Positions 17,103-32,245 of a stretch of 46,339 bases of DNA are shown here, piece by piece. The position numbers and the translations under genes were made by a program. The notes beneath the pieces were generated by a model, which saw nothing but the letters and a program-made list of their open reading frames with translations, was not told the origin of the DNA and ran no database searches. Numbering within the stretch: the stretch's first letter is position 1; the number at the start of each line of letters is the position of its first letter. Source of the stretch: Spirochaetota bacterium (GTDB taxonomy: Bacteria > Spirochaetota > UBA12135 > COTS27 > JAFLEE01); assembly GCA_017302015.1 (NCBI GenBank), contig JAFLEE010000036.1, positions 1 through 46,339 of the forward strand. Direction: 5' to 3'.

Positions 17103-18822
17103 GGGGCGACTCCTGGGAGGGATGGGGCGCGGCCTGCCCGGAAGGGGTTGAAGCGATTCGGTATTCCACCCAGCCGGCGATGCTTTCCCCCGGGGGGATA
17201 TTCCAAAGGCCCGCCTCATCGAGGAAGCCTCGCGCCGTGAGGCGATGGGCGTCGGGGGCGCTGGATTGGTGCTCGACGCAAAGGGCGCCGGCCCCGGGCC
17301 GGTAGAGCACGAGGTAGGCTTGGGAGGGATCGGCCGAGAGGTCGAGGCCCATGGCGGGCGCATCGAGCCAGGCCAAATGCGCCGTGGCCCCGGACCCGAA
17401 GAGGAAGGTGGTGCCCGAGGGCCACTCCAAGGCGGTCCGGCCTTCCCGGAAATCCGTTCCTCCCGAAACCGGGGCGAGGGCCCGGCGCTGGCCATCGAAG
17501 TTCGCCGAGTTTCCGTGCGTCGCCGTGAGGCGGAAAAGTCCCGAGTCGCCCACGGCCCAATAGGGGTGCACCCCGAATCCAACGGGAAGCCTTCGGCGAT
17601 CGACATTGCTCGCGACGTATTCGATGCGCAAGCCCGCCCCGCTGAGCCGGTAGGTCACCCGAAGCGAATTGGACCTCGGAAATGCCGCCCAGCGCGGGGA
17701 ACGCCCATCGTGGTCGAGGCGAAGAATCACGCTGGCCCCATCCGCCTGGGCACGGGGAGCCTCCCAGGAAAAGAGCGCGTCGATGGCATACCCGTGCATG
17801 CTCGAAGGCCGCGGTTGGTCGGACCCCCTCATGAGGTTCGTCCTTCCATCCAGGATGAGCCGGGCGTCTTTCACCGTGCTGGGGGTGGGATAGAGGAGCG
17901 GAATCCCCCCGGCGCGTTCCCCATCCGTCGGCTCCAGGGGCTTAAGAAGTTCCCGCGCGCCGACGCGCCAGGAGACCACACGGCCGCCGCTGGCGGGATC
18001 CACGAGTGCTTCCATCGCCGCAGCCGCCCCTTCCCCATGGCGGGAAAGACGCACGAGGCGCCGGCCACCCGAGAGGGTCCATCCCGCCTGATAGGCCCCG
18101 TGGGTTCGCTGGGCATCGAGGCCTTCACGATCCTGCGCGGCGCCGCCGAAAACTTCGATGAGGTCGGGCCAAGGCCCCATCCGGGCGAAGTCCAGCGGGG
18201 AGAAGCCGCCGACCGTCATCGCCGTGGTGCGGGCCCCATGATCGCAGAGCTTCCGGGCGATGGAAACGCGGCCGTAGCGCGCCGCGACATGGAGCGCGCG
18301 GTAGCCATCCACCGTCGCCGCCTCCACCGAGGGGCCCTTGAGAAGGAGGCGATCCACGACGCGCTCAAAGCCCCGGTAAGCCGCTAGGTGGAGCGCATTC
18401 CAGCCCCAGGCATTGGTGAGCCCCGCGTCGGCGCCCCGGGCCAGGAGAATAAGCGCCGCGTCATCCCGACCGCGGATGAGGGCCTTCATGAGGGCCGTCT
18501 CGCCCATCCCCAGGTATTCCTCCCGCGCATCCAGCTGCTTCGCGCCGCTCGAAAGCGCTTCCACAAGGTTCGGATTCCCCACGGCGGCGGCCAGCATGAG
18601 CGCGGTGGTGCGGGTGGACGCGCTGACCAGGCTGTCCCCGCCGAAACCCTCCCGAAGGTGTTGGTTCACGGAGGCCAGATCCCCCGCGCGGATCGCTTTC
18701 GCCAGGGTCGAAGGACTGAGGGGGGCGGGCGCTTCGCCCCATGCGCAAATTAATAGGAAGAGACCCAGTAGGGCGAGGCGCCAAACATCGCCTAAGGGCT
18801 GGCCATGCCGTTTGCTCGTCAT
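17080..18822 (-). CDS. Secreted ankyrin-repeat protein fused to an aldose-1-epimerase (mutarotase) domain
   Basis: This 580-aa protein has an N-terminal membrane or signal segment (about 13-30). About five ankyrin repeats span 36-228, shown by motifs such as TTALMLAAAVGNPNLVEAL, NALHLAAYRGFERVVDRLL and RALHVAARYGRVSIARKL. Residues 255-565 match galactose mutarotases: SSMHGYA (His343), GVHPYW (His419) and CVEHQSSAPDAH (Glu517) correspond to the catalytic His, His and Glu of GalM. It could convert anomers of released sugars, or bind sugars, in the envelope. It is first in the beta-helix/sulfatase operon and divergent from an AraC gene. The ankyrin-mutarotase combination is unusual. Confidence 0.85.
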   Translation of the reverse strand: MTSKRHGQPLGDVWRLALLGLFLLICAWGEAPAPLSPSTLAKAIRAGDLASVNQHLREGFGGDSLVSASTRTTALMLAAAVGNPNLVEALSSGAKQLDAREEYLGMGETALMKALIRGRDDAALILLARGADAGLTNAWGWNALHLAAYRGFERVVDRLLLKGPSVEAATVDGYRALHVAARYGRVSIARKLCDHGARTTAMTVGGFSPLDFARMGPWPDLIEVFGGAAQDREGLDAQRTHGAYQAGWTLSGGRRLVRLSRHGEGAAAAMEALVDPASGGRVVSWRVGARELLKPLEPTDGERAGGIPLLYPTPSTVKDARLILDGRTNLMRGSDQPRPSSMHGYAIDALFSWEAPRAQADGASVILRLDHDGRSPRWAAFPRSNSLRVTYRLSGAGLRIEYVASNVDRRRLPVGFGVHPYWAVGDSGLFRLTATHGNSANFDGQRRALAPVSGGTDFREGRTALEWPSGTTFLFGSGATAHLAWLDAPAMGLDLSADPSQAYLVLYRPGAGALCVEHQSSAPDAHRLTARGFLDEAGLWNIPPGESIAGWVEYRIASTPSGQAAPHPSQESPHVPIPAP

Positions 18823-18892
18823 CCCCTGATTCTAGACCTCCCCGGCGCCGCCGGCAATGGAAATCTTGATCTTTGAATAGGACAATTTGAGC
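18823..18892. promoter_or_regulatory. Divergent intergenic region, AraC gene and glycan operon
   Basis: Only 70 bp separate the ankyrin-mutarotase start (18822, minus) from the AraC start (18893, plus). Both promoters and any AraC operator must be here or inside the flanking genes. TAGAAT on the minus strand near 18832 lies too close to the ATG to be a normal -10. No operator repeat was found by eye. Confidence 0.3.
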
Positions 18893-19795
18893 ATGGGAAT
18901 TTCCCGCGCGCCTCGCGACCTAACGAAGAACGGCTATCGAGAGACCAAGGCACCGGCGCAAATCCTCTTCGCCAGCCCCTCCCCCCTCGCCGCGGCATTC
19001 GGGCTGAGCGTACTCGGCTTCGGGTTCCACGCGACGAAGCAGAAACGGACCTTCGACGCCATGAAGCCCTGGTCCCTCCCGTTCTGGTCGATCAATTGGG
19101 TCTCGAAGGGCGGCGGGTGGTTCGAAAACGGTCCCATCGGCAGGCGGCGCGTGCGCCGCGGCGAGGCCCTCGTGAGGTTCCCCCATGAACCCTGCCGATA
19201 CGGCCACTCCCCCGGCGGCGCCTGGGAGGAGTATTGGATTCTTTTCGACGGGAACCTCCCCGCACGGTTGGTGGAAGCGGGCCTCCTCGACGCGCATTCG
19301 CCGATCTTACGCCCCAGGGGGATCGATTTCACCCCGCGCTTCGAAGAAGCCCGCAAGGCCAGCCTCGTCCGCCGACCCCCGATGGCGATCTTCACCCGGC
19401 TCCTCATCGATCTCTTTTCCCACGGCCTCCCCGCCCCCGGCCGCCCGGAAAAGCCGGATCGACCTGAGACCGACGCCCTGAAACAATTCTACGAACTCCT
19501 CCATGCCCGCGCGGAAGAACCCCTGGAAGGCCTCCCCGGCCTCGCGGCCCCCTTCGGCAATTACCATAGCTTGCGGCGCGCCTTCCAGAAACGCTATGGC
19601 CGCGCGCCCCACCAAGTGCTCCTCGAGTCCAAACTCCTTCGGGCAAGGCAACGGCTCCTGACGACCCGGGGAACGCTCGCGCAAATCGCCCACCACGTCG
19701 GCATCGAGGATGTTTCCTATTTCATCCGCCTCTTCCGAAAGCGCTTCGGCCTCTCGCCCGTGCGGTTCCGCCGAGGGGTGGAGGCGGGGCCCTAG
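18893..19795 (+). CDS. AraC-family transcriptional regulator
   Basis: This 300-aa regulator has an N-terminal AraC-type sensing domain (about 60-170, with WSINWVSKGGGWFEN and GEALVRFPHEPCRYGHSP). A C-terminal double helix-turn-helix (about 205-297) includes YHSLRRAFQKRYGRAPHQVLLESKL and LAQIAHHVGIEDVSYFIRLFRKRFGLSPVRFR. The ATG at 18893 is preferred over the TTG two codons upstream; neither has a strong ribosome binding site. The first 55 residues look unlike a domain, so the true start may be further in, for example ATG 19061. It is divergent from the beta-helix/sulfatase operon, which it probably regulates. Confidence 0.87.
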   Translation: MGISRAPRDLTKNGYRETKAPAQILFASPSPLAAAFGLSVLGFGFHATKQKRTFDAMKPWSLPFWSINWVSKGGGWFENGPIGRRRVRRGEALVRFPHEPCRYGHSPGGAWEEYWILFDGNLPARLVEAGLLDAHSPILRPRGIDFTPRFEEARKASLVRRPPMAIFTRLLIDLFSHGLPAPGRPEKPDRPETDALKQFYELLHARAEEPLEGLPGLAAPFGNYHSLRRAFQKRYGRAPHQVLLESKLLRARQRLLTTRGTLAQIAHHVGIEDVSYFIRLFRKRFGLSPVRFRRGVEAGP

Positions 19796-19796
19796 G

Positions 19797-19867
19797 AGCC
19801 CGTCGGGCTGAAACAGGGGATTTTAGAAACCCTGACCTCGCCGGGGCCTTCCTTTCTCCCGCGGGAG
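19797..19867. terminator. Inverted repeats between convergent genes
   Basis: Three repeats sit between the AraC stop and the M28 gene end: AGCCCG-T-CGGGCT (19797-19809), CAGGG...CCCTG (19814-19834) and the palindrome CTCCCGCGGGAG (19856-19867). They may end transcription from both sides. None has a clear T-run, so the call is tentative. Confidence 0.28.
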
Positions 19868-19878
19868 GTGGGAATCCA

Positions 19879-21567
19879 TTAATCAGGCTTCTCGACCCGT
19901 TTCAGGTAATGCACCGACCCCGCATAGCGTTCGTAGCCGAGTTTTTCATACACCTTCTGCGCCGCCGTATCGTGGGTCAGGGTCGAGACGGTGCGCTTGA
20001 CGAACCCCTCCTCGTCCATACGCCGGGAGATCTCGGCCTGCATTGCCTTGCCGATGCCCTTCCCCTGATAGTCGGGATGCACGGCGTTATTGCCGATCTC
20101 CGCGAGTTCCTTGCCGGGATACGCATGCCAGGTGGCGTAGCCGACGACCCGCCCTTCCTTCTCGGCGACCACCGCGCGGTAGAGATCTCGCTTTAATTGG
20201 GCGCGCACTTCCGGACCCTTGAACGCGTGCCAATCCTTGCCGCCGGGCTTTTCTCCGAAGAAGGCCTCTTGCATGCGCGCGAGGCTCACCTCGCCGAAGG
20301 CCAGGCGGGTCACCTCCTCCACCGCGTCCAGATCCTCGAAGCGCGCCGGGCGCACGAGGAGGTCCCCGGAGACGGGATGGGGAAAAAAAGGCTTACAAGC
20401 GGCGAGGGCCCCGATCGTCTTCTCGATATCGGGCACGAAGGCCGCCACGCGGTCTAAATCCAGCGCGGTGCGGTCGTCGGCCGGGGTGTGGTAATAGGGC
20501 CGGTTGGCATTGTCGTAGTACCACACGTAGGGCACCCCGTACTGGTAGGCGCCCCCGTTATCGCCGCCGCCCGAGACATCGAGGCGATGGAGCAGATGGC
20601 AGCGGTCTTGGGGGATGGCGCCGAGCTTGTCGATGAAGGGCTTCGGGCCCGCGGCGTAGCGCGTGGCGGTGCCGAGGCGGTTGCCGATATCGTCGATGTC
20701 CACTAGGGCGATCGCCTCTGCCAAATGCGCGCGCCGTTTCGAGAAGAACGCCAGGGACCCGCGTCCGGTGAGGTCCTCTCCCCCGAACTCTTCGCTCCCC
20801 GTGGCGACGAGATAGATCGTGGCGGGGAAGTTTCGGACCTTCAGGCGCCGGGCGATGGCGAGGAGCGCGGCCACCGCGGCCCCGTTATCGGTGGCCCCGG
20901 GCGCCTGCGCCGCCGAATCGTAATGGGCGAAGACCGCCATCCAATGGGGCCCGCTCCCGGGCAACTCGGCCACGACATTCTGGGAGACGCCCAGGCGAGT
21001 CGGCTCGCCGTGCACGTGCACAGTCGCCACTTTTCCCTCGTGAGTTTTCAAGTGGAGCGCGTCGGCGTAGGAAAGCGTGATCACCGGCATCCGCGTGAGG
21101 GTGGGATCCCGCACGATCTTGGTGTTCACGTGATCGTTCAGGGGGCTCACCACGACCACCGCGGCGAGCCCCTCCGCCTCGAGCCGGCGCAAGAGCGCCT
21201 GGCGGGTGAAGAGATCGGCCATGGGCATGAGGATGCCGATGGCCCCGACGGGCACGGGGACCCGCGCGGCCTCCTCCTCGTTGCCGAGGAACACGAGGGG
21301 GCCGTGGGCGCGGCCGACCGGCGAGAATTGGAGGGGCCAAACGCGCCAGGAGACGCCGCCGATTTTCAATTCGGCGGATTCGGACCCGTCCTCGGGGGAG
21401 GGGAAATCTTCCGTCCAGGCCTTGAGTCCCGCATCCTGGAAGCGGGCTTCGATCCACGCGGCGGCTTTCTTTTCCGCCCCGCTTCCCGGGGCGCGGGGGC
21501 CGATGACGCGCACCAGGCCGTCCAGGGTGGCGTCGAGTTCCTCGCGAAGCGCGTGATCCGTCAGCAT
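19879..21567 (-). CDS. M28-family metallopeptidase fused to a GNAT acetyltransferase
   Basis: This 562-aa protein has no signal peptide, so it is probably cytoplasmic. Residues 1-395 form an M28 aminopeptidase with a PA-like insert (about 85-190). The di-zinc ligands are visible: HYDS (His215), ATDNGA (Asp227), SEEF (Glu259/Glu260), an Asp near 290, and YYHTPADD (His360). Residues 401-556 form a GNAT domain with GRVVGYATWHAY and the acetyl-CoA loop VHPDYQGKGIGKAMQ (496-510). One polypeptide could thus release an N-terminal amino acid and acetylate an amine. GGAGGGAG precedes the ATG at 21567. It is the last gene of the leftward D-amino-acid/peptide cluster, 24 nt after the M55 gene. Confidence 0.88.
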   Translation of the reverse strand: MLTDHALREELDATLDGLVRVIGPRAPGSGAEKKAAAWIEARFQDAGLKAWTEDFPSPEDGSESAELKIGGVSWRVWPLQFSPVGRAHGPLVFLGNEEEAARVPVPVGAIGILMPMADLFTRQALLRRLEAEGLAAVVVVSPLNDHVNTKIVRDPTLTRMPVITLSYADALHLKTHEGKVATVHVHGEPTRLGVSQNVVAELPGSGPHWMAVFAHYDSAAQAPGATDNGAAVAALLAIARRLKVRNFPATIYLVATGSEEFGGEDLTGRGSLAFFSKRRAHLAEAIALVDIDDIGNRLGTATRYAAGPKPFIDKLGAIPQDRCHLLHRLDVSGGGDNGGAYQYGVPYVWYYDNANRPYYHTPADDRTALDLDRVAAFVPDIEKTIGALAACKPFFPHPVSGDLLVRPARFEDLDAVEEVTRLAFGEVSLARMQEAFFGEKPGGKDWHAFKGPEVRAQLKRDLYRAVVAEKEGRVVGYATWHAYPGKELAEIGNNAVHPDYQGKGIGKAMQAEISRRMDEEGFVKRTVSTLTHDTAAQKVYEKLGYERYAGSVHYLKRVEKPD

Positions 21568-21591
21568 GCTCCCTCCATCCCCCCGCGGGGT

Positions 21592-22395
21592 TCAGTCCAC
21601 GCCGTAATGCTCTCCCGTCAGACGGTACTCGGGCCAGCCGCGGGTATAGCCCAACTCGCGCTTCAGGTAGCGCCGGTAGGCGGAGAGGAACTCGGGCCCC
21701 TCGTCATGGTAGGCCTTCTCGGGGCCGTTCTCCCCCGGGATCGAGAAACGATAGGGCGGGGGGAGGCGGTACGGGGGGATGCGTTTGCGGCGTTTCACGC
21801 CCCGGCGGGCGGCCTCGCCCAAGAGCCGGGCGCTGCGGGCCGGGGTGATGCATTTGGCCAGGGTGGGCCCGATGGCCTCCTTGGTGACGACGAACTCCGC
21901 GCCGCCGATGAGGTCGGCGACCTCGCGCTCCACGGCGCTGTCCCCCGAGATCAGCGCGACCGGGACCCCGCGGGACCCGCATTGGAGGATGAACATGCCC
22001 ACTTCGCCGTAATCGCGCCCATTGACCGTCACCCGCGTGTGGGGGGTGACCGCGCCCGGCGTACCGGTCATCGCATGGCCGCCGATGTACATCCCGACGT
22101 CCGTCCCCTCGAAGAACGGGAGCCAGGGCCCCCGTGGATAATCGCCGGTGATGAGCTGGGCCCGTTCGGTGAGTTCCTCCACGAGGAGCGTATTGCCTTG
22201 GCCGTGGGAATCCCAGATGACGACCTCGTCGGCCCCGGCGGCGAAGGCCCCGTCGGCCGCCGCGGAGACTTCCGCCGTGGCGATTTTCATGAGGCGGCGG
22301 GTGCGCTCCAGATTCACGGGGATATTGCGGTCTTGATCGTCGCGGATGACGAAGCCCGCGATCCCCTCGAAATCGAATTGGATGTAGACCTTCAT
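21592..22395 (-). CDS. M55 D-aminopeptidase (DppA family)
   Basis: This 267-aa soluble protein matches the family length. It begins with the DppA metal motif FDFEG (Asp8, Glu10), followed by WDSHG (His64), YIGGHAM (His107), TPHTRVTVNG (His119 and Asn125) and GEVG (Glu131), the expected zinc and catalytic residues. DppA releases N-terminal D-amino acids such as D-Ala from short peptides and forms decamers. The ATG overlaps the TGA of the nitrilase gene (ATGA). Next to an enolase-superfamily enzyme, an M19-like protein and a D-amino-acid PLP enzyme, it supports use of D-residue-containing peptides, for example from peptidoglycan. Confidence 0.92.
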   Translation of the reverse strand: MKVYIQFDFEGIAGFVIRDDQDRNIPVNLERTRRLMKIATAEVSAAADGAFAAGADEVVIWDSHGQGNTLLVEELTERAQLITGDYPRGPWLPFFEGTDVGMYIGGHAMTGTPGAVTPHTRVTVNGRDYGEVGMFILQCGSRGVPVALISGDSAVEREVADLIGGAEFVVTKEAIGPTLAKCITPARSARLLGEAARRGVKRRKRIPPYRLPPPYRFSIPGENGPEKAYHDEGPEFLSAYRRYLKRELGYTRGWPEYRLTGEHYGVD

Positions 22396-23312
22396 GCCGT
22401 CCCCCCCCGTTTTCCGTCGTTGGCCGCGGTCGAGCGTTCGAGATAGGCGTCGAGGGTCTCGAGGCCGAACTCGCGCACCAGGTCGGCGGCGCTGCGCTTG
22501 TCGCTGCGGCTGGTGATGAGGGCGGGACCCACGTTCGCCGGGATATCCACCGTGACCTCGCGGCCGTACTTGCGCTCGATGTCGGGGAATTTCTCCCGGT
22601 TGAAGTCGAGGTGCACCATGACGCGGTCGAGGTCGACCGTGGCCCGGGCGATCGGGCTATAGCAATCGGTCACCTTCACCTCGCGGCCGAAGGGATCGAG
22701 GATGCCCCCGCCGTCGAAGGGGAGCGCGGCGGCGAAGAAGGCGCGGGTCTGGTAGGCGAAGACCTGCTGCATGAGCCCGCCGTGGTACATGCTGGGGAAG
22801 GCGAGGATATCGGGCTTGAGCCGCCGGTAACCGTCGAGCACGTTCTGGAAATTGAGGTCGAAGCAGACGAGGCCCCCGAGGCGGCCGAGGGCGCTCTCCA
22901 CCACCACCGCGCCGGCGCCGGGGCTGAGGCCCCCGTTGCGCTCGCCATCGGTGAGGTTCACCTTGTCGTACACCCCGAGGACTTCGCCTCGGGGGTCGAG
23001 GAACACCACGCTATTGAAGCATTTCCCCCCGCGCTCGGTCTTCATGGACGCCGCCACATGGCAGCCCTCCGCGGTGGCGAGGCGCCGGTAGGCCGCGAGC
23101 ATCGGGCCGCCGCGCTGGACGTTCTCGGCGGTCTCAGGCGTCTGCGCGTAGGCCTCGACGCCCTCGCAGAAGACCACCAATTGGTCGCGGTAGCCTGCGA
23201 GCCGCCGGAAGACGCCCTCGAGTTCCTCGAGGATGATCTTTTGGGAATCGCTGGCGCCGCGCACGGCCCGCGTGGCGAATTGGACGCAGGCGATCTGTAC
23301 GGGGCGGCTCAT
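22392..23312 (-). CDS. Carbon-nitrogen hydrolase (nitrilase superfamily)
   Basis: This 306-aa enzyme has the full nitrilase-superfamily triad: Glu50 (VVFCEGVEAY), Lys117 (GVYDKVNLTDGE) and Cys150 (GGLVCFDLNFQ). It should hydrolyse an amide or carbamoyl bond, releasing ammonia or an amine from an amino-acid derivative; it is closer to amidase/carbamoylase-type members than true nitrilases. The ATG at 23312 overlaps the TGA of the oxidoreductase gene, and its own TGA overlaps the M55 ATG. This tight coupling with a D-aminopeptidase suggests a substrate such as an N-carbamoyl or amidated amino acid from the same pathway. Confidence 0.9.
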   Translation of the reverse strand: MSRPVQIACVQFATRAVRGASDSQKIILEELEGVFRRLAGYRDQLVVFCEGVEAYAQTPETAENVQRGGPMLAAYRRLATAEGCHVAASMKTERGGKCFNSVVFLDPRGEVLGVYDKVNLTDGERNGGLSPGAGAVVVESALGRLGGLVCFDLNFQNVLDGYRRLKPDILAFPSMYHGGLMQQVFAYQTRAFFAAALPFDGGGILDPFGREVKVTDCYSPIARATVDLDRVMVHLDFNREKFPDIERKYGREVTVDIPANVGPALITSRSDKRSAADLVREFGLETLDAYLERSTAANDGKRGGTA

Positions 23313-24247
23313 GCGTAGAGCTTCCCGGCCGCGGCCGCGTAGGACTTGGCGAAGGCCGCCCCGTCGAAGCCCGGGTCGCCGGGGGGGATGTCGGCGAGGC
23401 GCACCTCGCCGCCTCCGCGCTCCCGGGAGAGCCTTCCGGCGAGCATGAGGCGCACGGATTCGGTGAGGTCGGCGATGGGCGCGAGGTTCGGCTCCCCCTT
23501 CTCCATGGCGTCGCAGATGCGGTCGAGGAGCGCGCCGTAGATCTTGGCGGTATCGACGCGGAATTGGAAGGTCGATTTCGTGGTGGTGATGACGAACTCG
23601 AAGGGCTGCCACACCCCGTGGGTCACCGCGAAGGTGGCCGCGACGCCGCCCTGGAACCGGGCGAAATAAGTCTCCTGGGTCTTCCCCTCTACGCTCGAAG
23701 CCCCCATGAAACTCGCCGAGAGCGCCCCGGCACCCAAGAGCCCGCCGAGGCCCTCGGCCACGTGCACGGCGTAATTGAACTCGTCCACCCCGGCGGTGGC
23801 GAAGACGCCGAGGATCTTCCCGCGTTCGCTCTCTGGCTTGGCGGCGAAGGCGACGATCTCGTGGGCGAAGCGCAGCGAGGAACTGCCGAAGATCCGCAGG
23901 CCCCGGGCCGAGAGCGCTTCGAGTTCCCGGCAATCGGCCGCGTTCCCGACGATGGGCTTGTCGATGAAGACGGGCTTGCCGCGCTCGAGGAAGGGCCGGG
24001 CGCATTCGAGGTGGCGGTCCCAATCGCAGCCCTGGATGAAGCCGATATCGGTGGCATCCGCCAGGTCCGCGAGGCTGCGGCTGCGCTCCTGGATGCCGGC
24101 CTTGCGCATGAAGCCCTCCACCTCGTCGTCGCCGCGGAACCCGTCGTTGTAGATCCCGGTATAGGCGGCGCGCCCCTTGCCCGCCAAGTACTCGGCGAAG
24201 GCCTTGGGATGGGAGGTATCGATGTTGACGACGCCGATGCGGATCAT
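23309..24247 (-). CDS. Gfo/Idh/MocA-family oxidoreductase
   Basis: This 312-aa protein resembles NAD(P)-dependent dehydrogenases of the Gfo/Idh/MocA family. The N-terminal Rossmann part (about 1-125) contains FIDKPIVGNAADCREL, the counterpart of the EKP motif, with the usual Glu replaced by Asp. The beginning reads IGVVNIDTSH instead of a standard GxGxxG loop, so cofactor binding may differ. The C-terminal alpha/beta domain includes DEFNYAVHVAEGLGGLLG. The ATG at 24247 starts the conserved domain; codons up to 24316 are upstream leader. It is coupled to the nitrilase by ATGA. It may oxidise a sugar or amino-sugar moiety, for example of muropeptides, but this is inferred. Confidence 0.82.
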   Translation of the reverse strand: MIRIGVVNIDTSHPKAFAEYLAGKGRAAYTGIYNDGFRGDDEVEGFMRKAGIQERSRSLADLADATDIGFIQGCDWDRHLECARPFLERGKPVFIDKPIVGNAADCRELEALSARGLRIFGSSSLRFAHEIVAFAAKPESERGKILGVFATAGVDEFNYAVHVAEGLGGLLGAGALSASFMGASSVEGKTQETYFARFQGGVAATFAVTHGVWQPFEFVITTTKSTFQFRVDTAKIYGALLDRICDAMEKGEPNLAPIADLTESVRLMLAGRLSRERGGGEVRLADIPPGDPGFDGAAFAKSYAAAAGKLYA

Positions 24248-24287
24248 GGGTTCTCCTTGAGAAAGTTCCGAACGATCGATGAAGGGC

Positions 24288-24356
24288 TCATATCGCCACG
24301 GTGGGGAAGCCGCCATTCGTGCGGTGCGCCACGAAAGGCACGCGGAGGACGCTCAT
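24288..24356 (-). CDS. Possible 22-aa peptide coupled to the enolase-superfamily gene
   Basis: A 22-codon frame (MSVLRVPFVAHRTNGGFPTVAI) begins at an ATG that overlaps the TGA of the enolase-superfamily gene by ATGA, the same arrangement used by proven gene pairs in this cluster. It ends at 24288, 40 bp before the oxidoreductase ATG. It may be a leader peptide, a remnant of a decayed gene, or chance. Confidence 0.2.
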   Translation of the reverse strand: MSVLRVPFVAHRTNGGFPTVAI

Positions 24357-25621
24357 TGTTTTTCGTCCAGGAGGATCCCGCCGCTTTGGGCGTAAAAATC
24401 GGCGTCGAGGGCGAAGATGCCGCGCTGGGGTTTCGTCCACGATTTTCCGGCGCAGGGGTGCCGGGCGGCCATCGCATCCCAATCCCGGTAATTCTGGAAA
24501 CCGTTGGTCTCGACGATGCCCGCCTTCATGCCGGGGAAGAGCGGCAGCCGCGCGGCCACGTTCTTGTTCCACTCCACGAGGATCGGGTTGACCGTGAGGT
24601 CGGCGCAGAAGCAGGGGATGCCCTTCTCCGCCGCCACGGCGAGCATGCGCAGCGTCATGGAGAGGGTCTTGGCGATGGGCTTGAGGGCCAAGGCCCGGTA
24701 GCCCAAGTCGATGCGTTCCCGCACGTCGGCCTCGCCATGGGCGCTCTCGTCCGCCGCCACGCGCACGCCCAGGTCCCCGACGCGCTGGTGGTTCTCTTCG
24801 GCGAAGGGCTCCTCCAGGATGAGGATATCGCCCAGGGCGCCCAGGGCCTTGGCGTGGTCGAGGAAACGCGCGAGGAAATCGGTGGAGGGATAGCGCCCGT
24901 TGGCATCGAGGTAATAGGCGATGCGGCCCGAGGCGGTATGGGGCGTCTCGAAACCCCGTGCGATCTGGTGGATCTCGGCGAGGCGCGCCTGGTCCCAGGC
25001 GAGCATCTTCTCGGGGTCTCCATCGCCCTCGGGATCCGACCCGATCTTGATCTTGAGGAGGGGATGGCCGGCCTCGAGCACCGCTCGGATCCCCTCGGCC
25101 TTCACGCCATAGGAAAGCAGCGGCACGAGGGCCAGCGCCCCGTGGCGCGCGCCGAGGGCTTTGCGGTAGGGCTCGGGCACCATGGCATCGAAACCGCCCA
25201 CGCCAAGGCGGCGCGCATAGAGCACCCACGCCGCGTTGTCGAGGGCGACGAGGGCGTTGAGGATGAAGGTGAGGCGCAGGTCGGGGCGGCCGGTGACCGT
25301 TTTGCCGTAGGCCACGAGTTCGGGGAGGATCTTCGCCTGCAGGTCCAGCGGCGTCTCCCACGGGACCTCTTTCGCCATTTGGGCCGCGCGCGAAGTGATG
25401 AGGAACATCATGGCGTTGCCGGCCGCCTCGGGGTTGCCCGTGAATACGGCGCCGTCGGACCACAGCACGCTTTGGGTCCCCAGGCCGCTGGCGCGCAGGC
25501 CCCCCTCGTCTTCGAGGCTCACGCGGGCCTGCCAGAGTTCGGAGAGGTAGCCGCCCTTGAACCCGAAGGGGGCCAAGAGGGGCTCGCGCTTGAAATCGCA
25601 TTGGGCGTTCTTGATTTTCAT
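24353..25621 (-). CDS. Enolase-superfamily enzyme (MLE/dipeptide-epimerase-like)
   Basis: This 422-aa protein has an MLE-type N-terminal cap followed by a barrel. The signature residues are the K-x-K pair (Lys190, Lys192), metal ligands Asp239 (LDANG), Glu270/271 (LEEP) and Asp291 (AADES), and the opposing Lys314 (LALKPI). Lysines on both faces are typical of racemases/epimerases and MLE-like enzymes, such as L-Ala-D/L-Glu epimerase. The exact reaction cannot be read from sequence; o-succinylbenzoate synthase or galactonate dehydratase are less likely in this context. The ATG at 25621 is 29 nt downstream of the regulator stop at 25651, so both may form one operon. Confidence 0.83.
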   Translation of the reverse strand: MKIKNAQCDFKREPLLAPFGFKGGYLSELWQARVSLEDEGGLRASGLGTQSVLWSDGAVFTGNPEAAGNAMMFLITSRAAQMAKEVPWETPLDLQAKILPELVAYGKTVTGRPDLRLTFILNALVALDNAAWVLYARRLGVGGFDAMVPEPYRKALGARHGALALVPLLSYGVKAEGIRAVLEAGHPLLKIKIGSDPEGDGDPEKMLAWDQARLAEIHQIARGFETPHTASGRIAYYLDANGRYPSTDFLARFLDHAKALGALGDILILEEPFAEENHQRVGDLGVRVAADESAHGEADVRERIDLGYRALALKPIAKTLSMTLRMLAVAAEKGIPCFCADLTVNPILVEWNKNVAARLPLFPGMKAGIVETNGFQNYRDWDAMAARHPCAGKSWTKPQRGIFALDADFYAQSGGILLDEKQ

Positions 25622-25650
25622 TTGGGGACCTTGGGGGGGATGGGAGCGCG

Positions 25651-26661
25651 CTACCCGAGCAGGCGGCCCGGGAGATAGATTCGACGCGGCAAAATACCCG
25701 GGTTCTCGATGCGCTCGACGCACTCTTCCACCGCGAAGCGGCCGGCCGCCTGCCAATCGACGCTCACCACCGGGCCGGGCTCGAAGCCGGGGTCGATGCG
25801 GTTCTTGCCGTCGAAGCCGAGGAGGCTGGCCTTCGAGGCGAGGGCGTGGCCGTGGGTTTCGCGGTAGCGCATGGCCCAGACCTGCATGGCGCCCCCGCTG
25901 GTGAAGAGGATGCCGCCCTTGGGCTTCGCCGGCGGCGGCTCGTCATGGCCGACGAGGGTGCCTTGCCCGCCGTGGCGGGCCCAGGCATCGAGGAAAAGCC
26001 GGGCGCGATTCTCGAAGGTCGGGGCCGCGTGGCCGACGACGGTGACTTCCTTCACGCGGTGGGCCTGGAAATGGGCGACGGCGAGGGAGGCCGCCTCGAA
26101 CGGATCCATGTCGATGATTGTCAGGCGACCGCCATCGCTATCGTGGACGCAGACCCCCACGAGGGGCCGGGTCGGCGCGAGCTTCTTGTAGAGTTCACCG
26201 TGCTCCTCCGCGCCGAGGAGCACCGCGCCCTCCGCGCCCGCAAGGAGTTCGTCGAGTTCGGCCAATTTCATTTTTTCGTAATTGAAGTGCAGGACCAGCG
26301 AAGCGCCGAGCTCGGCGGCCGCCGATTGCATCCCCAATAGGACGGTCGAAAAAATGCCCGTCACCAGGTTCTGGCCCCCGAGGAAAACGGCCACCCGGCG
26401 GCCCAAGGGCTCTTCGGTCCTTCGGGAAGCTTCCCGCACATAGGTGCCGCTGCCATGGCGCTTTTCCAGCACTCCCTGGCGGCAGAGCTGGTCCACCGCC
26501 CCCCGCACGGCCCCCGCCGGCAATTGGAAGCGCTCCATGAGTTCCCGAAGGGAAGGGATGCAGAATCCGGGGGGATATTGGCCCGAATGGACCTTCTCGA
26601 GGATGAAATCGGTGAGCCCCCGCACGGTGGACGGGGTCGGATGGGAAGCGCGCTCAGACAT
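25651..26661 (-). CDS. GntR-type HTH fused to a LacI-like ligand-binding domain (regulator)
   Basis: This 336-aa regulator has an N-terminal GntR winged helix (about 12-80: LTDFILEKVHSGQYPPG, LRELMERFQLPAGAVRGAVDQLCRQGVLEKRHGSGTYV). A periplasmic-binding-like sensor of the LacI/GalR type (about 90-330) follows. This AraR-like layout usually binds sugars, but the ligand here could be a peptide or amino-acid derivative from the neighbouring pathway. The ATG at 26661 is supported by a sigma70 promoter at 26682-26710; the upstream ATG at 26700 would lie inside it. The enolase gene follows after 29 nt. Confidence 0.88.
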   Translation of the reverse strand: MSERASHPTPSTVRGLTDFILEKVHSGQYPPGFCIPSLRELMERFQLPAGAVRGAVDQLCRQGVLEKRHGSGTYVREASRRTEEPLGRRVAVFLGGQNLVTGIFSTVLLGMQSAAAELGASLVLHFNYEKMKLAELDELLAGAEGAVLLGAEEHGELYKKLAPTRPLVGVCVHDSDGGRLTIIDMDPFEAASLAVAHFQAHRVKEVTVVGHAAPTFENRARLFLDAWARHGGQGTLVGHDEPPPAKPKGGILFTSGGAMQVWAMRYRETHGHALASKASLLGFDGKNRIDPGFEPGPVVSVDWQAAGRFAVEECVERIENPGILPRRIYLPGRLLG

Positions 26662-26681
26662 GGGGGACCACTGTTCAAGAA

Positions 26682-26710
26682 ATACTACACACTTTAACAC
26701 TGTTTGTCAA
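26682..26710 (-). promoter_or_regulatory. Sigma70-type promoter with repeat operator for the GntR-LacI gene
   Basis: On the minus strand, -35 TTGACA (26710-26705) and -10 TAGTAT (26687-26682) are separated by exactly 17 nt. Within the spacer AGTGT is repeated 8 nt apart (26701-26697 and 26693-26689), giving AGTGTTAAAGTGT, a plausible operator for the gene product itself. Confidence 0.7.
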
Positions 26711-26994
26711 TACGGCGCTTTGCCTCCCCCGAAATCTATCCGAAACGAGGCCGTTAAATCACATAAGAAAGCGCCCCGAAATCCCCCCCCATCAGGAATA
26801 CCTATGGGGTCGTCTAAAATTTCGGGCATGGCACTCAATATTCTGGAACGCCGTGCGAATGATCTCTACCCGGGGAGTACGATGGAAATTCCCTTGGACC
26901 CAGATCTTAAGAGAAAACTCCGGGAGCCTACCGCAGTCTCTTGGCCGGGTTCACGCCCCGGTTGCCGGCCTCATGGGTAACGCTTTGGACCGAT
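26711..26994. other. Unassigned AT-richer spacer
   Basis: This stretch lies between the PLP-enzyme gene end (26995) and the regulator promoter. It is lower in G+C than its neighbours. It holds a 50-codon rightward frame (26828-26980) without a clear ribosome binding site, and no RNA gene I recognise. A leftward terminator for the upstream operon may be here but has no obvious hairpin with T-run. Confidence 0.35.
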
Positions 26995-28149
26995 CTATTG
27001 GCCCAATCCGCGCAGATCAATTTCCCAGGCATCCACCACCGTATCTCCTTGGGTCACCCACAGTAGGTCGTGCAGGTTGATGGTGGGGTCGCAGTGGGGA
27101 AGGATCAGTTCGACTCGCTCTCCCAAGGCCGGCCGGGCCCCACCGGGCGGCGGGAACAAGCGGCCGTGCTCATCGCCGAACCACTCGTAGCGCCAGGTGC
27201 CGGGCCGACCGATGGGCAGGGGCGGTGCGTCGGGGGTGAAATAGAGTTGCTTGAGGCCCGCATCGATGGTGACGAAGTCGGCATGGTTGGCGCTGATGAC
27301 GGTGGATAGGAGCGTGAGCGCCGGTTGGAAGCGATCGAAGCGCCGACCGTCTGCGCCCCCCAATTTGAGGTATTCCGCATCCATCACGCAATAGGAACCC
27401 ACCTGGAGATCGCTGAGATCCGGGATTCCCAAGTCGGCCTCGGCGGTGCCGGTGCCCGCCCCGGTGAGGAGATCGATGGGCAGGCCCGAGGCCCGTAACC
27501 GGCGAAAAACTTCGGCGGCCCGGCCCAGCAAGGCCCGCGAACGCGAGGCCCGCTCTTCGGCGTTTTCGATGTGCTGCAAATGCCCGGCGTAGCACTGCAA
27601 GCCCCGCAGCCTGAGGCCGTCCTGGACAGCCACCCATTGGGCAAAATCCGCCGCCGCCGCGAAGGAGACGCCCGTGCGCCCCATCTCGGGATCCACATCC
27701 ACGAGGACCTCGAGGGTGATGCCCGCCTGCCGGGCCGCCGACGCCAGCGCCAGCGCGTTCTCCCGGGCATCCACCACCACCCTGAGGCCGGGGAAGCGGG
27801 CGGCCAAGGCGACGAGCCGCGCCACCCGGGCCGCGGCCACCACCGGCGAGGTGATGAGCACTTCGGGGATGCCTGCCTCGAGCAGTACCTCGGCCTCGGC
27901 CAATTTGGCGGCGCAGATCCCCACGCACCCGCCGGTGGCCCATTGGCGCGCGGCGAGGCGCGAGCACTTGTGGGTCTTGGCGTGGGGGCGCAGCATTTTC
28001 CCGGCGCCCCGGGCCAGATCCCGCATCAATGCCAAGTTGCGATCCAGTCGGTCAAGATCGAGCACCAGGCAGGGAGTGTCGAGTCCATCCCGGTGGCGGC
28101 CCCGCATGTCGGTCACCCCTCCGTCAGACGACAAGTTTCCGTTCATCAT
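26995..28149 (-). CDS. D-threonine aldolase / D-serine dehydratase-like PLP enzyme
   Basis: This 384-aa fold-type III PLP enzyme has an alanine-racemase-like N-terminal barrel with Schiff-base Lys58 in RPHAKTHK. Phosphate-binding GAGTGTAE and the QVGSYCVMDAEY segment follow. A D-serine-dehydratase-like C-terminal domain has the metal motif PHCDPTINLHD. These are hallmarks of the DSD1/D-threonine aldolase family, which degrades D-hydroxy-amino acids. The ATG at 28149 overlaps the TGA of the M19 gene. This enzyme, the M55 D-aminopeptidase and the dipeptidase point to D-amino-acid catabolism. Confidence 0.9.
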   Translation of the reverse strand: MMNGNLSSDGGVTDMRGRHRDGLDTPCLVLDLDRLDRNLALMRDLARGAGKMLRPHAKTHKCSRLAARQWATGGCVGICAAKLAEAEVLLEAGIPEVLITSPVVAAARVARLVALAARFPGLRVVVDARENALALASAARQAGITLEVLVDVDPEMGRTGVSFAAAADFAQWVAVQDGLRLRGLQCYAGHLQHIENAEERASRSRALLGRAAEVFRRLRASGLPIDLLTGAGTGTAEADLGIPDLSDLQVGSYCVMDAEYLKLGGADGRRFDRFQPALTLLSTVISANHADFVTIDAGLKQLYFTPDAPPLPIGRPGTWRYEWFGDEHGRLFPPPGGARPALGERVELILPHCDPTINLHDLLWVTQGDTVVDAWEIDLRGLGQ

Positions 28150-29375
28150 GGGGCCGCCGGGGCGGGCGCAACGATGCCCTCGAGGGCGGCGCGGGCCACG
28201 CGCAGCACATTGCCGCCCAGCACTTGTCGGATGGCCGCCTCGCTGTGCCCGCGCTGCACGAGGCCCACCGTGAACAGGGGCCAATTGGTCCAGGCCAGGC
28301 TGGGGTCATCGGCGCCGGGGAGGGTACCCTCGGGCCAATAGGATTCGAAGATCGCGCGCGCCTTGGGCCAGGCGCCCTGCAGCTTCGCCCACTCCTGTTC
28401 GTCGCGCGCCGCGCTGTGGGCCTTATCGGTGCCGATGGCCACGTGCTCGGCGCCGAAGCGCCTCATCAGGTAGTCCAGGTGGTCGAGGAAGCGGCTTAAA
28501 TCGCCGGCGCCCCCGAGGAAGCCGGAGACGCAGCAAACCCCGACGTAGCCGCCCGTGTCGGCGATGGCCTTGATGACCCCGTCGGGTTTCGCCCGGGGAT
28601 GGGCGTGGAGCGCGGCGCAGGTGGTGTGGCTGGCCACCATGGGGCGCCGGGAAAGCTGCGCGGCCTCCAGCGAGGTCTGCCAGCCGCTATGGGCCACGTC
28701 GCAGACGAGACCGCAGCGGTTTAGTTCGGCGATGGCGAGGCGGCCGAAATCGCTTAGGCCCCCATTGGCCGCTTCCATGCAGCCATCGCCCAGGAGGTTA
28801 CGGCGATTGTAGGTGAGGTGCATCATGCGGCAGCCCATCTGGAAAAAGAGCGGCAAGTAGGCCAATTCCTCTTCCGCGCTGCGCCACTGCTGGGCTAGCG
28901 GCACCCCGTTGGTGGTGAGGTAGAGGCAATGCTTGCCGGCGCGCTTGGCGGCCTCCACATCCTCGGGCAAGGTGGCCCGCACCAGGTGGCCGCGCAGCAA
29001 GTCGCCGTTTTGCGTGTGGCGGGCGAAGCGCTTTAAGTGCTGCAGGGGCGCCTGGCATTCCTCGCCCGCGTTCTGGAACACGCAGGTCACCCCCGCGGCC
29101 TCCCAGGCCTCCGCCGCCTCGGAGCGGGCCTGGAGATCCCGTACCTGTCCGCTCATGATCTGGTGCTCCCGCAGGTCCTTGAGTTCCTCTTGGGAGGCGC
29201 CTTCTCCGGCGGCCTGGCGCAACGCATCCCCGTCCATGGGGGCCAGGGGCGCGAAGCCGTAGGCGTCGAAGACCAGGGCCTCGCGGTGAAGACGCAGCCC
29301 GACCTCGAGGTCGCGGGCCGAGGGCTTGAGGTTCGCCAGGCCGTGCGCGTACGCTTCGGTGATGCGGGGGTCCAT
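28146..29375 (-). CDS. M19-family (renal dipeptidase-like) protein with altered metal site
   Basis: This 409-aa protein resembles membrane/renal dipeptidases, which cleave dipeptides including L-D forms. DVAHSGWQT and VASHTTCAALHAHPRAK keep the two later metal His residues, and VAIGTDKAH keeps the late Asp. The N-terminal H-x-D motif reads FDAYGFAP, and the usual bridging Glu (IEG) region reads LTTNGVP. Some metal ligands therefore differ, and activity may be altered or need other residues. No signal peptide is present. AAGGAG precedes the ATG at 29375. It is coupled by ATGA to the PLP enzyme. Confidence 0.83.
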   Translation of the reverse strand: MDPRITEAYAHGLANLKPSARDLEVGLRLHREALVFDAYGFAPLAPMDGDALRQAAGEGASQEELKDLREHQIMSGQVRDLQARSEAAEAWEAAGVTCVFQNAGEECQAPLQHLKRFARHTQNGDLLRGHLVRATLPEDVEAAKRAGKHCLYLTTNGVPLAQQWRSAEEELAYLPLFFQMGCRMMHLTYNRRNLLGDGCMEAANGGLSDFGRLAIAELNRCGLVCDVAHSGWQTSLEAAQLSRRPMVASHTTCAALHAHPRAKPDGVIKAIADTGGYVGVCCVSGFLGGAGDLSRFLDHLDYLMRRFGAEHVAIGTDKAHSAARDEQEWAKLQGAWPKARAIFESYWPEGTLPGADDPSLAWTNWPLFTVGLVQRGHSEAAIRQVLGGNVLRVARAALEGIVAPAPAAP

Positions 29376-29574
29376 GATGGCTCCTTAAGGCGCTTCGCGC
29401 AGGAAGTGGACGGATCGCCCATGATCGGGTCGCCCCGAGCAGACTTCTGGGATGTTGCCATGGAGGGGAAAGGCCCGAAAGTTCACCCCATCCGCCGCGC
29501 CCCCGGTTGGCGACGCCGCATCCAAACGCTTCCGGAACGATGGAACCCGAAACGCGCCATTCGCCGGACGGCAG

Positions 29575-31803
29575 CTATCCGGCGATGGCCGGATTCTCCG
29601 GATGCTTCAGCGTGCGCTCGCGGTCCCGGATGGCTTGGGCGATGTCCGCTGCGCGATCGAGGGCGCGCAATTGCGCCACCAGCGTGCCGTCCCCCATGAG
29701 GCGAGCCACGCGGGAGAGGAGCCCGAGGTAGACCTGATGCCGAGCTTCCGGGGCGCCGAGGAGCAGGATGACATGCACGGGCTTCCCATCGGCGGCCCCC
29801 CAATCCACCCCGGGTTTCGAGACGGCCAGGGCCATGAAGACTTCCTTGACCGCGGAGGAACGGACATGGGGGATGGCGAGCCCCCCGCCGATTCCGGTAT
29901 TCGCGATGGCTTCTCGTTCGAGGATGCGGTGGTAGAGTTCGTCCCGGTTCCCGAGGCGCCCGCCATGGGCTAGCTTCCCGAGGATCTCCCGGAGGGCGTC
30001 ATCCTTCTTGCGGGCCTCCAGGGGCACGATCACATGGGAAGGCGGGAGAAGCAGCCCCACGGAATCCCGCGCGCGCATCTTCTCGCCGACCCCGACTTCG
30101 TCCAGGAACTCATACAGGCTCTGCCGCAAATCCGCCCGTTTACGGGCCGAAAGCGACGCCTTGCCGCGGCCCTCCCGGGAAATGGCTTCGGCCAAGGCCA
30201 CGCCAACTTCGGCTTCGCCCGCCGCCACCAGGGTGGCCCCGGCTTTTTTGATGCGGGCGGCCTCATTGAGGTTGCTGCATCGGACGAAAACCCGAATGTG
30301 GGGATTGCGAATTTTGGCTTGGCGGATGATTTCGGGGGCATCCTCCAAGTCGGTGCTCAGGATCAGGGTGCCGGCGGTGGCCACCCCCGCTTCTTCGAGG
30401 AGTTCGGGGCGGAGCGCGTCGCCGTAGATGGCCGGATAGCCGTGCTTGCGCAGTTCGCGGACCGTCCGCAGATCCAGGTCGACAATGGTGGTTTCCGCCA
30501 TCTGTTCGGCGAGGAGCTGGTGGACGATCTTTCCCACGGGCCCGTATCCGACCAGGATGCACTTGTCCTTCTGGATGCTCGCCGCTTGCGCGGCGGGCCC
30601 CGTGGCCGGGTGTTTGCCCCTCGCTTCCCGTTGACGGGCCGTGCGACGGGCCAGCCCATAGATGACCGGATTGAGCGCGATGGAAATCATGGAGGCGCCC
30701 ACGAGGGCATTCCATCCGGCGGGGTCGAGGAGCCCCAGGCTGAGGGCGACGGTGCCCAGGATGAAACTGAACTCGCCGATCTGGGAGAAGGCCGCCCCGA
30801 TGGGGAGCGCCAACGCCATGGGCTTCCCCAGTAGGCGCACCACCAGGAGCGTGGCGAGGGGTTTCACCCACATCACGACCAGGAGCACCGCCAGGAGGAC
30901 GAGGGGCGTCTGAACCAGGGCCTTCGGGTTGACGAGCATCCCCACCGAAACGAAAAACAGAATGGAAAAGACATCTTTGAGGGGAAGGGCATCCCCGGCG
31001 GCGCGGGAGGCGAAATCGGAGCGGCCCACCGCGATGCCCGCCAGGAAGGCGCCCAGGGCCATGGAGACCCCGAAAAGCGATGCCGAGGCGACGGAGATCC
31101 CCAGGGCCGTCACCAGCACGGTCAGGGTGAAGAGTTCCCGGGAACGGGTCTTTTCGATCTGCTCGAAGAGGCGCGGGATGGCCCACTTCGCCAGCACGAA
31201 GACCGCCGCCCCGAGGGCCAGCATCTTCGCCAGGGCGAGGGCCACGGCCTTGGCGGTTTCCCCAGGGGAAAGTTGGGCGTGCTGCCCTCCGAAAAGAATG
31301 GGGAGCAGCAGGAGGAGCAGGACGGTCATGAGGTCTTCCACCACCGTCCACCCGATGGCCAGATGGCCGATGGGGCCATGCATGTCGTGGTGGGACGTCA
31401 GAACGAGGGCCATGACCACCGTGCTGGCCACCGAGATAGCCATGCCCAGGATGATCCCGGAGACCCAGGGCCAACCGAAGAGGGTCATGAGGGCGGCGGT
31501 GGCCAGGGTGGAGAGGGCGCTCTGGAGGACGGCCCCGGGGAGGGCGTAGCGCCAGACCGCCAAAAGTTCCTTGACGTGGAAACGCAAACCCACGACGAAG
31601 AGCAGAAGGATCACCCCGATCTCAGCGAATTGCTCGGTGACCTTTTGATCGGCGACGAAACCCGGGGTGAAGGGGCCGATGGCCAATCCGGCGGCCAGAT
31701 AGCCCACGATGGGAGAAATAGAGAGCCGATTGGCAAGGTAACCGAGGACCAAAGCGCCGATAAGGCCCGCCACCAACGTGACGATGATGTTGAGATCGTG
31801 CAT
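29575..31803 (-). CDS. Kef-type cation/proton antiporter fused to TrkA-N and PTS EIIA-like domains
   Basis: This 742-aa inner-membrane protein has about 12-13 hydrophobic segments (about 5-395) matching CPA2 Kef/YbaL antiporters (LSISPIVGYLAAG, GEFSFILGTVA). A TrkA-N nucleotide-binding domain (about 425-545) contains ILVGYGPVGKIVHQLL and IYGDALRPELLEEAGV. The C-terminal 140 residues match a fructose-type PTS EIIA domain, with His646 in GGGLAIPHVR at the phosphorylation position. The ATG at 31803 begins the first membrane helix. Likely function: potassium or sodium efflux gated by nucleotide and perhaps phosphorylation. No other PTS gene is nearby. Confidence 0.9.
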   Translation of the reverse strand: MHDLNIIVTLVAGLIGALVLGYLANRLSISPIVGYLAAGLAIGPFTPGFVADQKVTEQFAEIGVILLLFVVGLRFHVKELLAVWRYALPGAVLQSALSTLATAALMTLFGWPWVSGIILGMAISVASTVVMALVLTSHHDMHGPIGHLAIGWTVVEDLMTVLLLLLLPILFGGQHAQLSPGETAKAVALALAKMLALGAAVFVLAKWAIPRLFEQIEKTRSRELFTLTVLVTALGISVASASLFGVSMALGAFLAGIAVGRSDFASRAAGDALPLKDVFSILFFVSVGMLVNPKALVQTPLVLLAVLLVVMWVKPLATLLVVRLLGKPMALALPIGAAFSQIGEFSFILGTVALSLGLLDPAGWNALVGASMISIALNPVIYGLARRTARQREARGKHPATGPAAQAASIQKDKCILVGYGPVGKIVHQLLAEQMAETTIVDLDLRTVRELRKHGYPAIYGDALRPELLEEAGVATAGTLILSTDLEDAPEIIRQAKIRNPHIRVFVRCSNLNEAARIKKAGATLVAAGEAEVGVALAEAISREGRGKASLSARKRADLRQSLYEFLDEVGVGEKMRARDSVGLLLPPSHVIVPLEARKKDDALREILGKLAHGGRLGNRDELYHRILEREAIANTGIGGGLAIPHVRSSAVKEVFMALAVSKPGVDWGAADGKPVHVILLLGAPEARHQVYLGLLSRVARLMGDGTLVAQLRALDRAADIAQAIRDRERTLKHPENPAIAG

Positions 31804-32245
31804 TCGTGTGCTCGGTGAAGCTCGCTCGGGGATGCGCCGAGGGACGGTTGGGAGACAACTCAGCAGTGGCGAACCGGAAACCCCAGGGAGGAACCTGAGC
31901 CAATCCGGATCCACAGAATGGGCGTATCTTGGCGTGAAAACAATGAAAACTCAATTTCACGATGGGAGGCGTCCCTACGAGCGGCCTTCAATAGGAAGCG
32001 GGGGACGGTCCGGTCGACGGGAAAGTTCCCATTCCAGTCTATATCCGCCTGGATCGCCTCGCGCATCGACCGAGTGAAGGGGGCAGCTCGCCCGACCCGT
32101 GGAAGCGGTCGCCGGTTCCGTCCCCCCTTTTTAGCGAGAGGGAGATGGTATTGGGGTGCGGATCGCTATTGCCACCCCAAAATCCTCTTCCCGGGGACCC
32201 CGATGCTAGACTCGGGGAACCCCTTTCACGACCCTGGAGGTCCCC
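31804..32245. promoter_or_regulatory. Divergent intergenic region with several inverted repeats
   Basis: This 442-bp gap between the Kef gene (minus) and the substrate-binding-protein gene (plus) holds no supported gene. It has three clear inverted repeats: CGTGAAA (31933-31939) with TTTCACG (31955-31961); TTGGGGTG (32151-32158) with CACCCCAA (32173-32180); and CCCCGA (32198-32203) with TCGGGG (32212-32217). The last two lie just upstream of the rightward gene and may form RNA hairpins or operators. A GGAGG ribosome binding site lies at about 32235-32239. Confidence 0.4.

Follow-up and report, generated by a model that had tools for sequence, protein, structure and literature searches.

In a 46,339-nucleotide stretch of Spirochaetota DNA (contig JAFLEE010000036.1 of assembly GCA_017302015.1; hereafter the window), eight genes, all on the minus strand, span positions 19879-29375. 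We call them A to H by ascending coordinate; their transcription order is H, G, F, E, D, C, B, A. Genes A to E encode an M28-GNAT fusion protein, a member of the M55 D-aminopeptidase family, a carbon-nitrogen hydrolase, a Gfo/Idh-fold protein and an enolase-superfamily enzyme of the MLE type. We regard these five as a coherent set that is very probably linked in function, because the enzyme genes recur in other arrangements in other genomes. Our tentative proposal, to which we give somewhat less than an even chance, is that F-E-D-C-B-A is a regulated catabolic operon around this recurrent set, handling an amide-linked amino carboxylate. A first-pass annotation, made from the sequence alone, had read the eight leftward genes as a coherent locus for the breakdown of muropeptides or other D-peptides. 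The strand and the gene families were confirmed (seven of the eight genes exceed their curated Pfam cut-off; D falls just short and was assigned by the Gfo/Idh fold of its AlphaFold model), and so was the coherence of the locus for its recurrent part; the substrate could not be fixed as murein or D-peptide. None of the papers reached in a literature search described this gene set.

Recurrence of the enzyme set in other genomes

The phylum sample held 296 genomes, 295 besides the window's own. Close relatives of C and of D were found in the same four of them, the window's own genome and G035, G146 and G162. The hypergeometric probability of this co-occurrence in three other genomes among 295 is 2e-7, a figure that counts G146 and G162, which belong to one family and are not fully independent. 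One operon of G162 holds, in order, a Gfo/Idh gene, D (61%), a gene designated E', A (46%, a full-length M28-GNAT fusion) and C (53%). As read from its sequence, E' encodes a divergent enolase-superfamily protein in which the KxK and metal residues are kept. In G146, B (72%) is followed by C (56%), and the same contig holds D (59%) and E' at a distance of about 43 kb. G035 has its E, D and C relatives on three different contigs (that of E is L026). Neither H nor G is present in G146 or G162, two genomes that carry the rest. The Lentisphaerae genome G297 has C (57%) directly next to E (58%); its closest M55 gene (68% to B) stands beside a GNAT gene resembling the GNAT half of A, and a weaker M55 is found near a 51% relative of G. 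Genes of types A, B, C, D and E are thus conserved together outside the window, and chance adjacency, as an explanation for all eight genes, is ruled out for these five.

When GTDB contigs were scanned with an E alignment, at least 185 stretches encoding a relative were found, and 80 loci were retained. No characterised member of this wide branch was found; it has no close solved structure and weak Pfam coverage. Near E, D was found in about 15 of the 80 loci, C in nine, relatives of G in four and the GNAT part of A in two. M19 (within 10 kb) and M55 were near E in none of the 80, and both were rejected as conserved partners of E. The D-E pair is present in about a dozen Bacillota loci, and D, E and C occur together in six; a C relative (57%) adjoins E in L010. 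In a tree of E, built with a quick version of the tree search, many D-bearing loci group together, with several gains or losses of D.

The four loci with a G relative within 10 kb of E (L011, L061, L065 and L084, three of them from Paenibacillaceae) compare with 0.5 expected under a rough assumed density. A D-threonine-aldolase-like enzyme had been counted in the set from the start, and in other phyla its relatives are indeed found repeatedly next to the enolase-superfamily gene. L061 and L065 (Cohnella, Paenibacillus) are the richest loci. One strand carries an IclR regulator, an SDR protein, an ArgE/DapE-type deacylase, RidA (found in L061), a D-threonine-aldolase relative and a regulator in which GntR is joined to a solute-binding protein; the other carries E, D, a solute-binding protein, two sugar-type permeases, C and two Gfo/Idh genes. 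In Paenibacillaceae, E is flanked by GntR regulators. One type that repeats beside the E loci of this family combines, in a single protein, a GntR domain and a solute-binding protein of the sugar type, SBP_bac_8/SBP_bac_1 (L061:8344-9858, L065:8340-9758 and L084:3669-5195; domains checked in L061).

Predicted active sites of the A to E products

Gene E (24353..25621, minus strand, 422 residues) was assigned by Pfam (MR_MLE_C, 2.5e-9), alignment and structure model. A single-sequence search of the PDB gave no match to E, and a profile search gave weak matches only. The AlphaFold model (pLDDT 94.6) has the MLE-type capping domain and the (beta/alpha)7-beta barrel. In the PDB it is most similar to dipeptide epimerases (Z 34.5 to 3r0u, root-mean-square deviation 2.8 over 346 residues), with chloromuconate cycloisomerase within 1 Z and N-acylamino-acid racemases within about 2 as close runners-up. 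In a profile alignment to E. coli YcjG (92.6% probability), the KxK motif, the metal ligands and the second catalytic lysine all align; the residues (K190/K192, D239, E270/E271, D291 and K318) are invariant across 45 relatives. Dipeptide epimerases (AEE) carry a DxD motif at the end of strand 8, which in YcjG reads DLDG. After its last strand E has E371-T-N373-G at this place, with ExN replacing DxD; E371 and N373, invariant in the family, were placed by adjacency, as the hhalign alignment ends 2-3 residues before the motif. The two catalytic bases of YkfB are K162 and K268 (PMC5808125), to which the two lysines of E should correspond. Because KxK, the metal ligands and the second lysine are kept relative to YcjG, E can be expected to carry out alpha-proton chemistry on a carboxylate, while it fails one mark of the dipeptide epimerases. 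On this last point the first-pass description of E as dipeptide-epimerase-like was not supported. Some Bacteroidota relatives of E (L070:1582-2958 and others) begin with twin-arginine or lipoprotein-like signals and may be exported.

Gene D (23309..24247, minus strand, 312 residues) scored 23.3 bits against the Gfo/Idh Pfam cut-off of 24, and its assignment comes from the AlphaFold model, alignment and recurrence, with at least 14 loci in which it adjoins or lies near E or E'. The model has a Gfo/Idh fold (Z 28.5 to 6nor, root-mean-square deviation 2.7, 279 residues), and the nearest folds are inositol, aminoglycoside and levoglucosan dehydrogenases. The GxGxxG loop for nicotinamide adenine dinucleotide (NAD), retained in the canonical Gfo/Idh neighbours, is missing; it is shortened to G-V-V-N-I-D-T-S-H-P. 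Within NIDTSHP the Asp, Ser and His are invariant in the alignment. The Lys of the (E/D)KP motif and the active-site His are retained. A Gfo/Idh-fold subfamily with an invariant D-x-S-H in place of the NAD glycine loop is found in about 15 loci from several phyla.

The three remaining products belong to families of amide-bond hydrolases. Gene B (21592..22395, minus strand, 267 residues) matches Pfam M55 (3.9e-53). The metal and active-site residues of DppA are D8, E10, H60, H104, H115 and E133; all six align in B against DppA (1hi9) and are also kept in the B orthologues. B reached 107 of the 430 bits set as cut-off for the NCBIfam DppA equivalog, which leaves it in the M55 family and outside the DppA equivalogs. 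Gene C (22392..23312, minus strand, 306 residues) was assigned by Pfam (CN_hydrolase, 2.4e-15), alignment and recurrence, and its candidate Glu-Lys-Cys triad is in place in the alignment (CEGVE, YDKVN and VCFDLN). Gene A (19879..21567, minus strand, 562 residues) combines an M28 metallopeptidase domain (residues 197-376, Pfam 1.6e-22) with a GNAT acyltransferase domain (residues 448-545, 1.7e-16); its assignment draws on Pfam, on the conservation of the fusion in G162 and on a structure search, in which the nearest solved structures are M28 aminopeptidases. A second M55 gene is present in the window's own genome (L008:10417-11085, G000:C80), with 36-38% identity to B. Some 3 kb from it lies a distant relative of D (28%), and a GntR-like gene comes next after that relative. 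In Lentisphaerae GWF2_44_16 (L161:8873-14548), genes for a GH20 family protein, a GlmS-type glutaminase domain, GNAT and M55 stand in a row.

Transcription units and genes F, G and H

ATGA overlaps, which the first-pass annotation had noted for several of the genes, join D to C (23309-23312) and C to B (22392-22395); a third, between H and G, exists only if G starts at 28149, and the start at 28107 looks better. Third-position GC of 0.79-0.88 backs seven of the frames as coding. The over-long frame of C failed this filter, and its coding status is backed by homology. Rfam and tRNA scans of the window gave no matches. A gap of about 300 bases separates G from F. Directly upstream of F lies TTGACA-17-TAGTAT (26682..26710, minus strand), which with 10 of 12 consensus positions is the region's best promoter-like match and was identified by consensus match alone; with two matches found in the region against 1.4 expected from shuffles, such matches are not above chance and only the position is suggestive. 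The sequence AACAGTG occurs twice around this site and is possibly an operator. Because of the gap and the single consensus promoter match upstream of F, F-E-D-C-B-A is likely a unit with its own promoter-like site and regulator, with H-G separate. A single eight-gene operon is unsupported given the same two features.

Gene F (25651..26661, minus strand) encodes a GntR domain (Pfam, 3.4e-10) followed by a LacI-like C-terminal part, which was read from the sequence and has no Pfam match. F is the probable regulator of E-A.

Gene G (26995..28107, minus strand) encodes a fold-III pyridoxal phosphate (PLP) enzyme of the D-threonine aldolase/3-hydroxy-D-aspartate aldolase family, with Pfam matches to Ala_racemase_N (9.6e-22) and D-ser_dehydrat (1.4e-14). 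Its closest PDB entries are D-threonine aldolase 4v15 (1.6e-66) and hydroxyaspartate aldolase. Like BhcC and D-threonine aldolase, it keeps the PLP lysine (RPHAKTHK) and the C-terminal metal HxD (HCD). Unlike BhcC, it reached only 251 of the 690 bits of the NCBIfam cut-off, and no other gene of the BhcC cycle was seen nearby.

Gene H (28146..29375, minus strand) matches Pfam M19 (1.6e-57), with further evidence from alignment. In H and eight close relatives, the Asp/Glu is followed by YGF in the place of the HxD that supplies metal ligands close to the N-terminus in canonical M19 proteins, and Asn replaces the bridging Glu found in the M19 (V/I/L)EG motif. The later active-site His, His, Arg and Asp are retained. 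With the HxD and bridging Glu ligands gone, H as a canonical M19 dipeptidase is ruled out. Its best PDB match, the Pseudomonas M19-like protein 2i5g (1.7e-36), covers residues 139-395 only. H appears to be an accessory or a mere neighbour gene with a non-canonical metal site. The role that the first-pass annotation gave to M19 was not borne out, given the missing ligands and the lack of any link to the module elsewhere. A distinct M19-like subfamily without HxD (L129-L136) has five matches in Lentisphaerae GWF2_44_16; read from sequence, its neighbours include GntR-like regulators, URO-D-like genes and sugar-enzyme-like genes.

The H-G and F-E-D-C-B-A units may also be unrelated and merely adjoin, with no shared pathway. 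We give this an appreciable chance, though well under one in two, and it is compatible with any explanation of F-A. The gap and the promoter-like site between G and F speak for it, as does the absence of H and G from G146 and G162; the excess of G relatives near E in the 80 loci speaks against it.

Possible substrates and flanking genes

In the proposed operon F-A, the substrate would be a carboxylate whose amino group is amide-linked: either a D-amino acid in N-acyl or peptidyl form, or an aminosugar acid that bears one. Our first guess of an amide or N-acyl amino group comes from the fact that E is constant from locus to locus while the type of amide hydrolase changes (C, M55, M28 or ArgE/DapE-type). 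B, C and the M28 half of A would cleave amide bonds, and E would abstract the alpha-proton from the carboxylate, leading to epimerisation or beta-elimination of the residue. D may use this intermediate or the one that follows. The GNAT half of A would acylate a free amine, either making the substrate of E or detoxifying a released D-amino acid. By cleavage or dehydration of a 3-hydroxy-D-amino acid, G might yield glycine or a keto acid, towards central metabolites, and F would sense the substrate or a derivative. Several observations weigh against this proposal. The window's cluster contains no transporter. D may not bind NAD at all. E' of G162 and G146 shares only about 23% identity with E and need not catalyse the same step. 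Linkage of M55 and M28-GNAT to the enzyme set is seen in few genomes only. By Pfam tally over the 80 loci, the usual neighbours of E are Gfo/Idh dehydrogenases (the commonest domains, in 14/82 and 17/91 neighbour proteins) and peptidases are few. Subsets of the loci also have sugar-type (CUT1) importers (SBP_bac_1 and BPD_transp_1), close to E loci that bear D or C, or xylose-isomerase-like barrels, close to the other E loci (mostly in Bacteroidota).

These neighbours fit a sugar-acid or amino-sugar pathway in which peptides are not the substrate. D and, in relatives, the canonical Gfo/Idh proteins would handle an oxidised sugar, E would epimerise or beta-eliminate next to the carboxylate, and the amidases would remove N-acyl or uronamide groups. 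Because of the strong Gfo/Idh and sugar-importer context elsewhere, we consider an aminosugar-acid pathway nearly as likely as the operon function proposed above. The nearest folds of D are in line with it, and in G297 the neighbours of the GNAT-M55 pair include a GH20 family protein and a GlmS-type glutaminase domain. On the other hand, E repeatedly has D-threonine-aldolase relatives, RidA and an ArgE/DapE-type deacylase as neighbours, and M55 and M28 belong to the nearest sets; all of these point to amino acids.

In the muropeptide or D-peptide route of the first-pass annotation, L-D dipeptides would be substrates both of M19, which would split them, and of E, which would epimerise them, and M55 would cut D-residues. 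Such a locus would be like the B. subtilis dpp-ykf operon, which encodes the M55 peptidase DppA and the L-Ala-D/L-Glu epimerase YkfB. As in dpp-ykf, one operon encodes an M55 protein together with an enolase-superfamily enzyme of the MLE type that has two catalytic lysines, B has the DppA metal residues, and E is structurally closest to dipeptide epimerases. We nevertheless consider this route unlikely. H lacks HxD and the bridging Glu, and E lacks DxD. No LD-carboxypeptidase, NlpC/P60 endopeptidase or oligopeptide ABC importer was found among the ten proteins scanned (18887-31914), and the related loci have CUT1 importers and Gfo/Idh genes. Unlike dpp-ykf, in which YkfB lies next to YkfC (PMC5808125), the locus has no YkfA, YkfC or Dpp ABC importer, and it adds the Gfo/Idh-like, carbon-nitrogen hydrolase, M28-GNAT and D-threonine-aldolase relatives.

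A second comparison is offered by the N-succinylamino acid racemase pathway, reportedly described by Sakai et al. in 2006, which is said to consist of a GNAT acyltransferase, an enolase-superfamily racemase and an M20 deacylase. The locus resembles it in that a single operon combines a GNAT domain, an MLE-type enzyme and a zinc amide hydrolase, and a related Paenibacillaceae cluster has an ArgE/DapE-type deacylase. It differs in that GNAT is fused to M28, E is no close relative of the racemase, and a carbon-nitrogen hydrolase, D and M55 are added. The nearest known kind is the pairing of M55 with a dipeptide epimerase in B. subtilis, with the GNAT logic nearest to the racemase pathway, and neither is a full fit. 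Conceivably, though we consider it very improbable, M28-GNAT is a bifunctional acylase/deacylase at both ends of a racemase step, in which GNAT would acylate a D-residue released by M55, E would invert it and M28 would free the L-form. If so, this would be a new one-operon route for D-to-L conversion with a new enolase-superfamily racemase. Should D-residues be handled at all, an acylation-linked route would be added to the known D-amino-acid and murein-peptide recycling systems. The partners of E (D without the NAD loop, carbon-nitrogen hydrolase, M55 and M28-GNAT) place concrete, testable constraints on its function.

Directly upstream of H, on the same strand, the window encodes a CPA2-type cation/proton antiporter fused to TrkA_N and PTS EIIA (type 2) domains (29575-31914). 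On the other side, next to the locus and again on the same strand (13381-18822), the sequence reads as a sulfatase-like protein, a pectate-lyase-like protein and an ankyrin-repeat protein with an aldose-epimerase-like part. The plus strand at 33869-40408 encodes a repetitive protein of 2179 residues rich in Asn, Ser and Thr.

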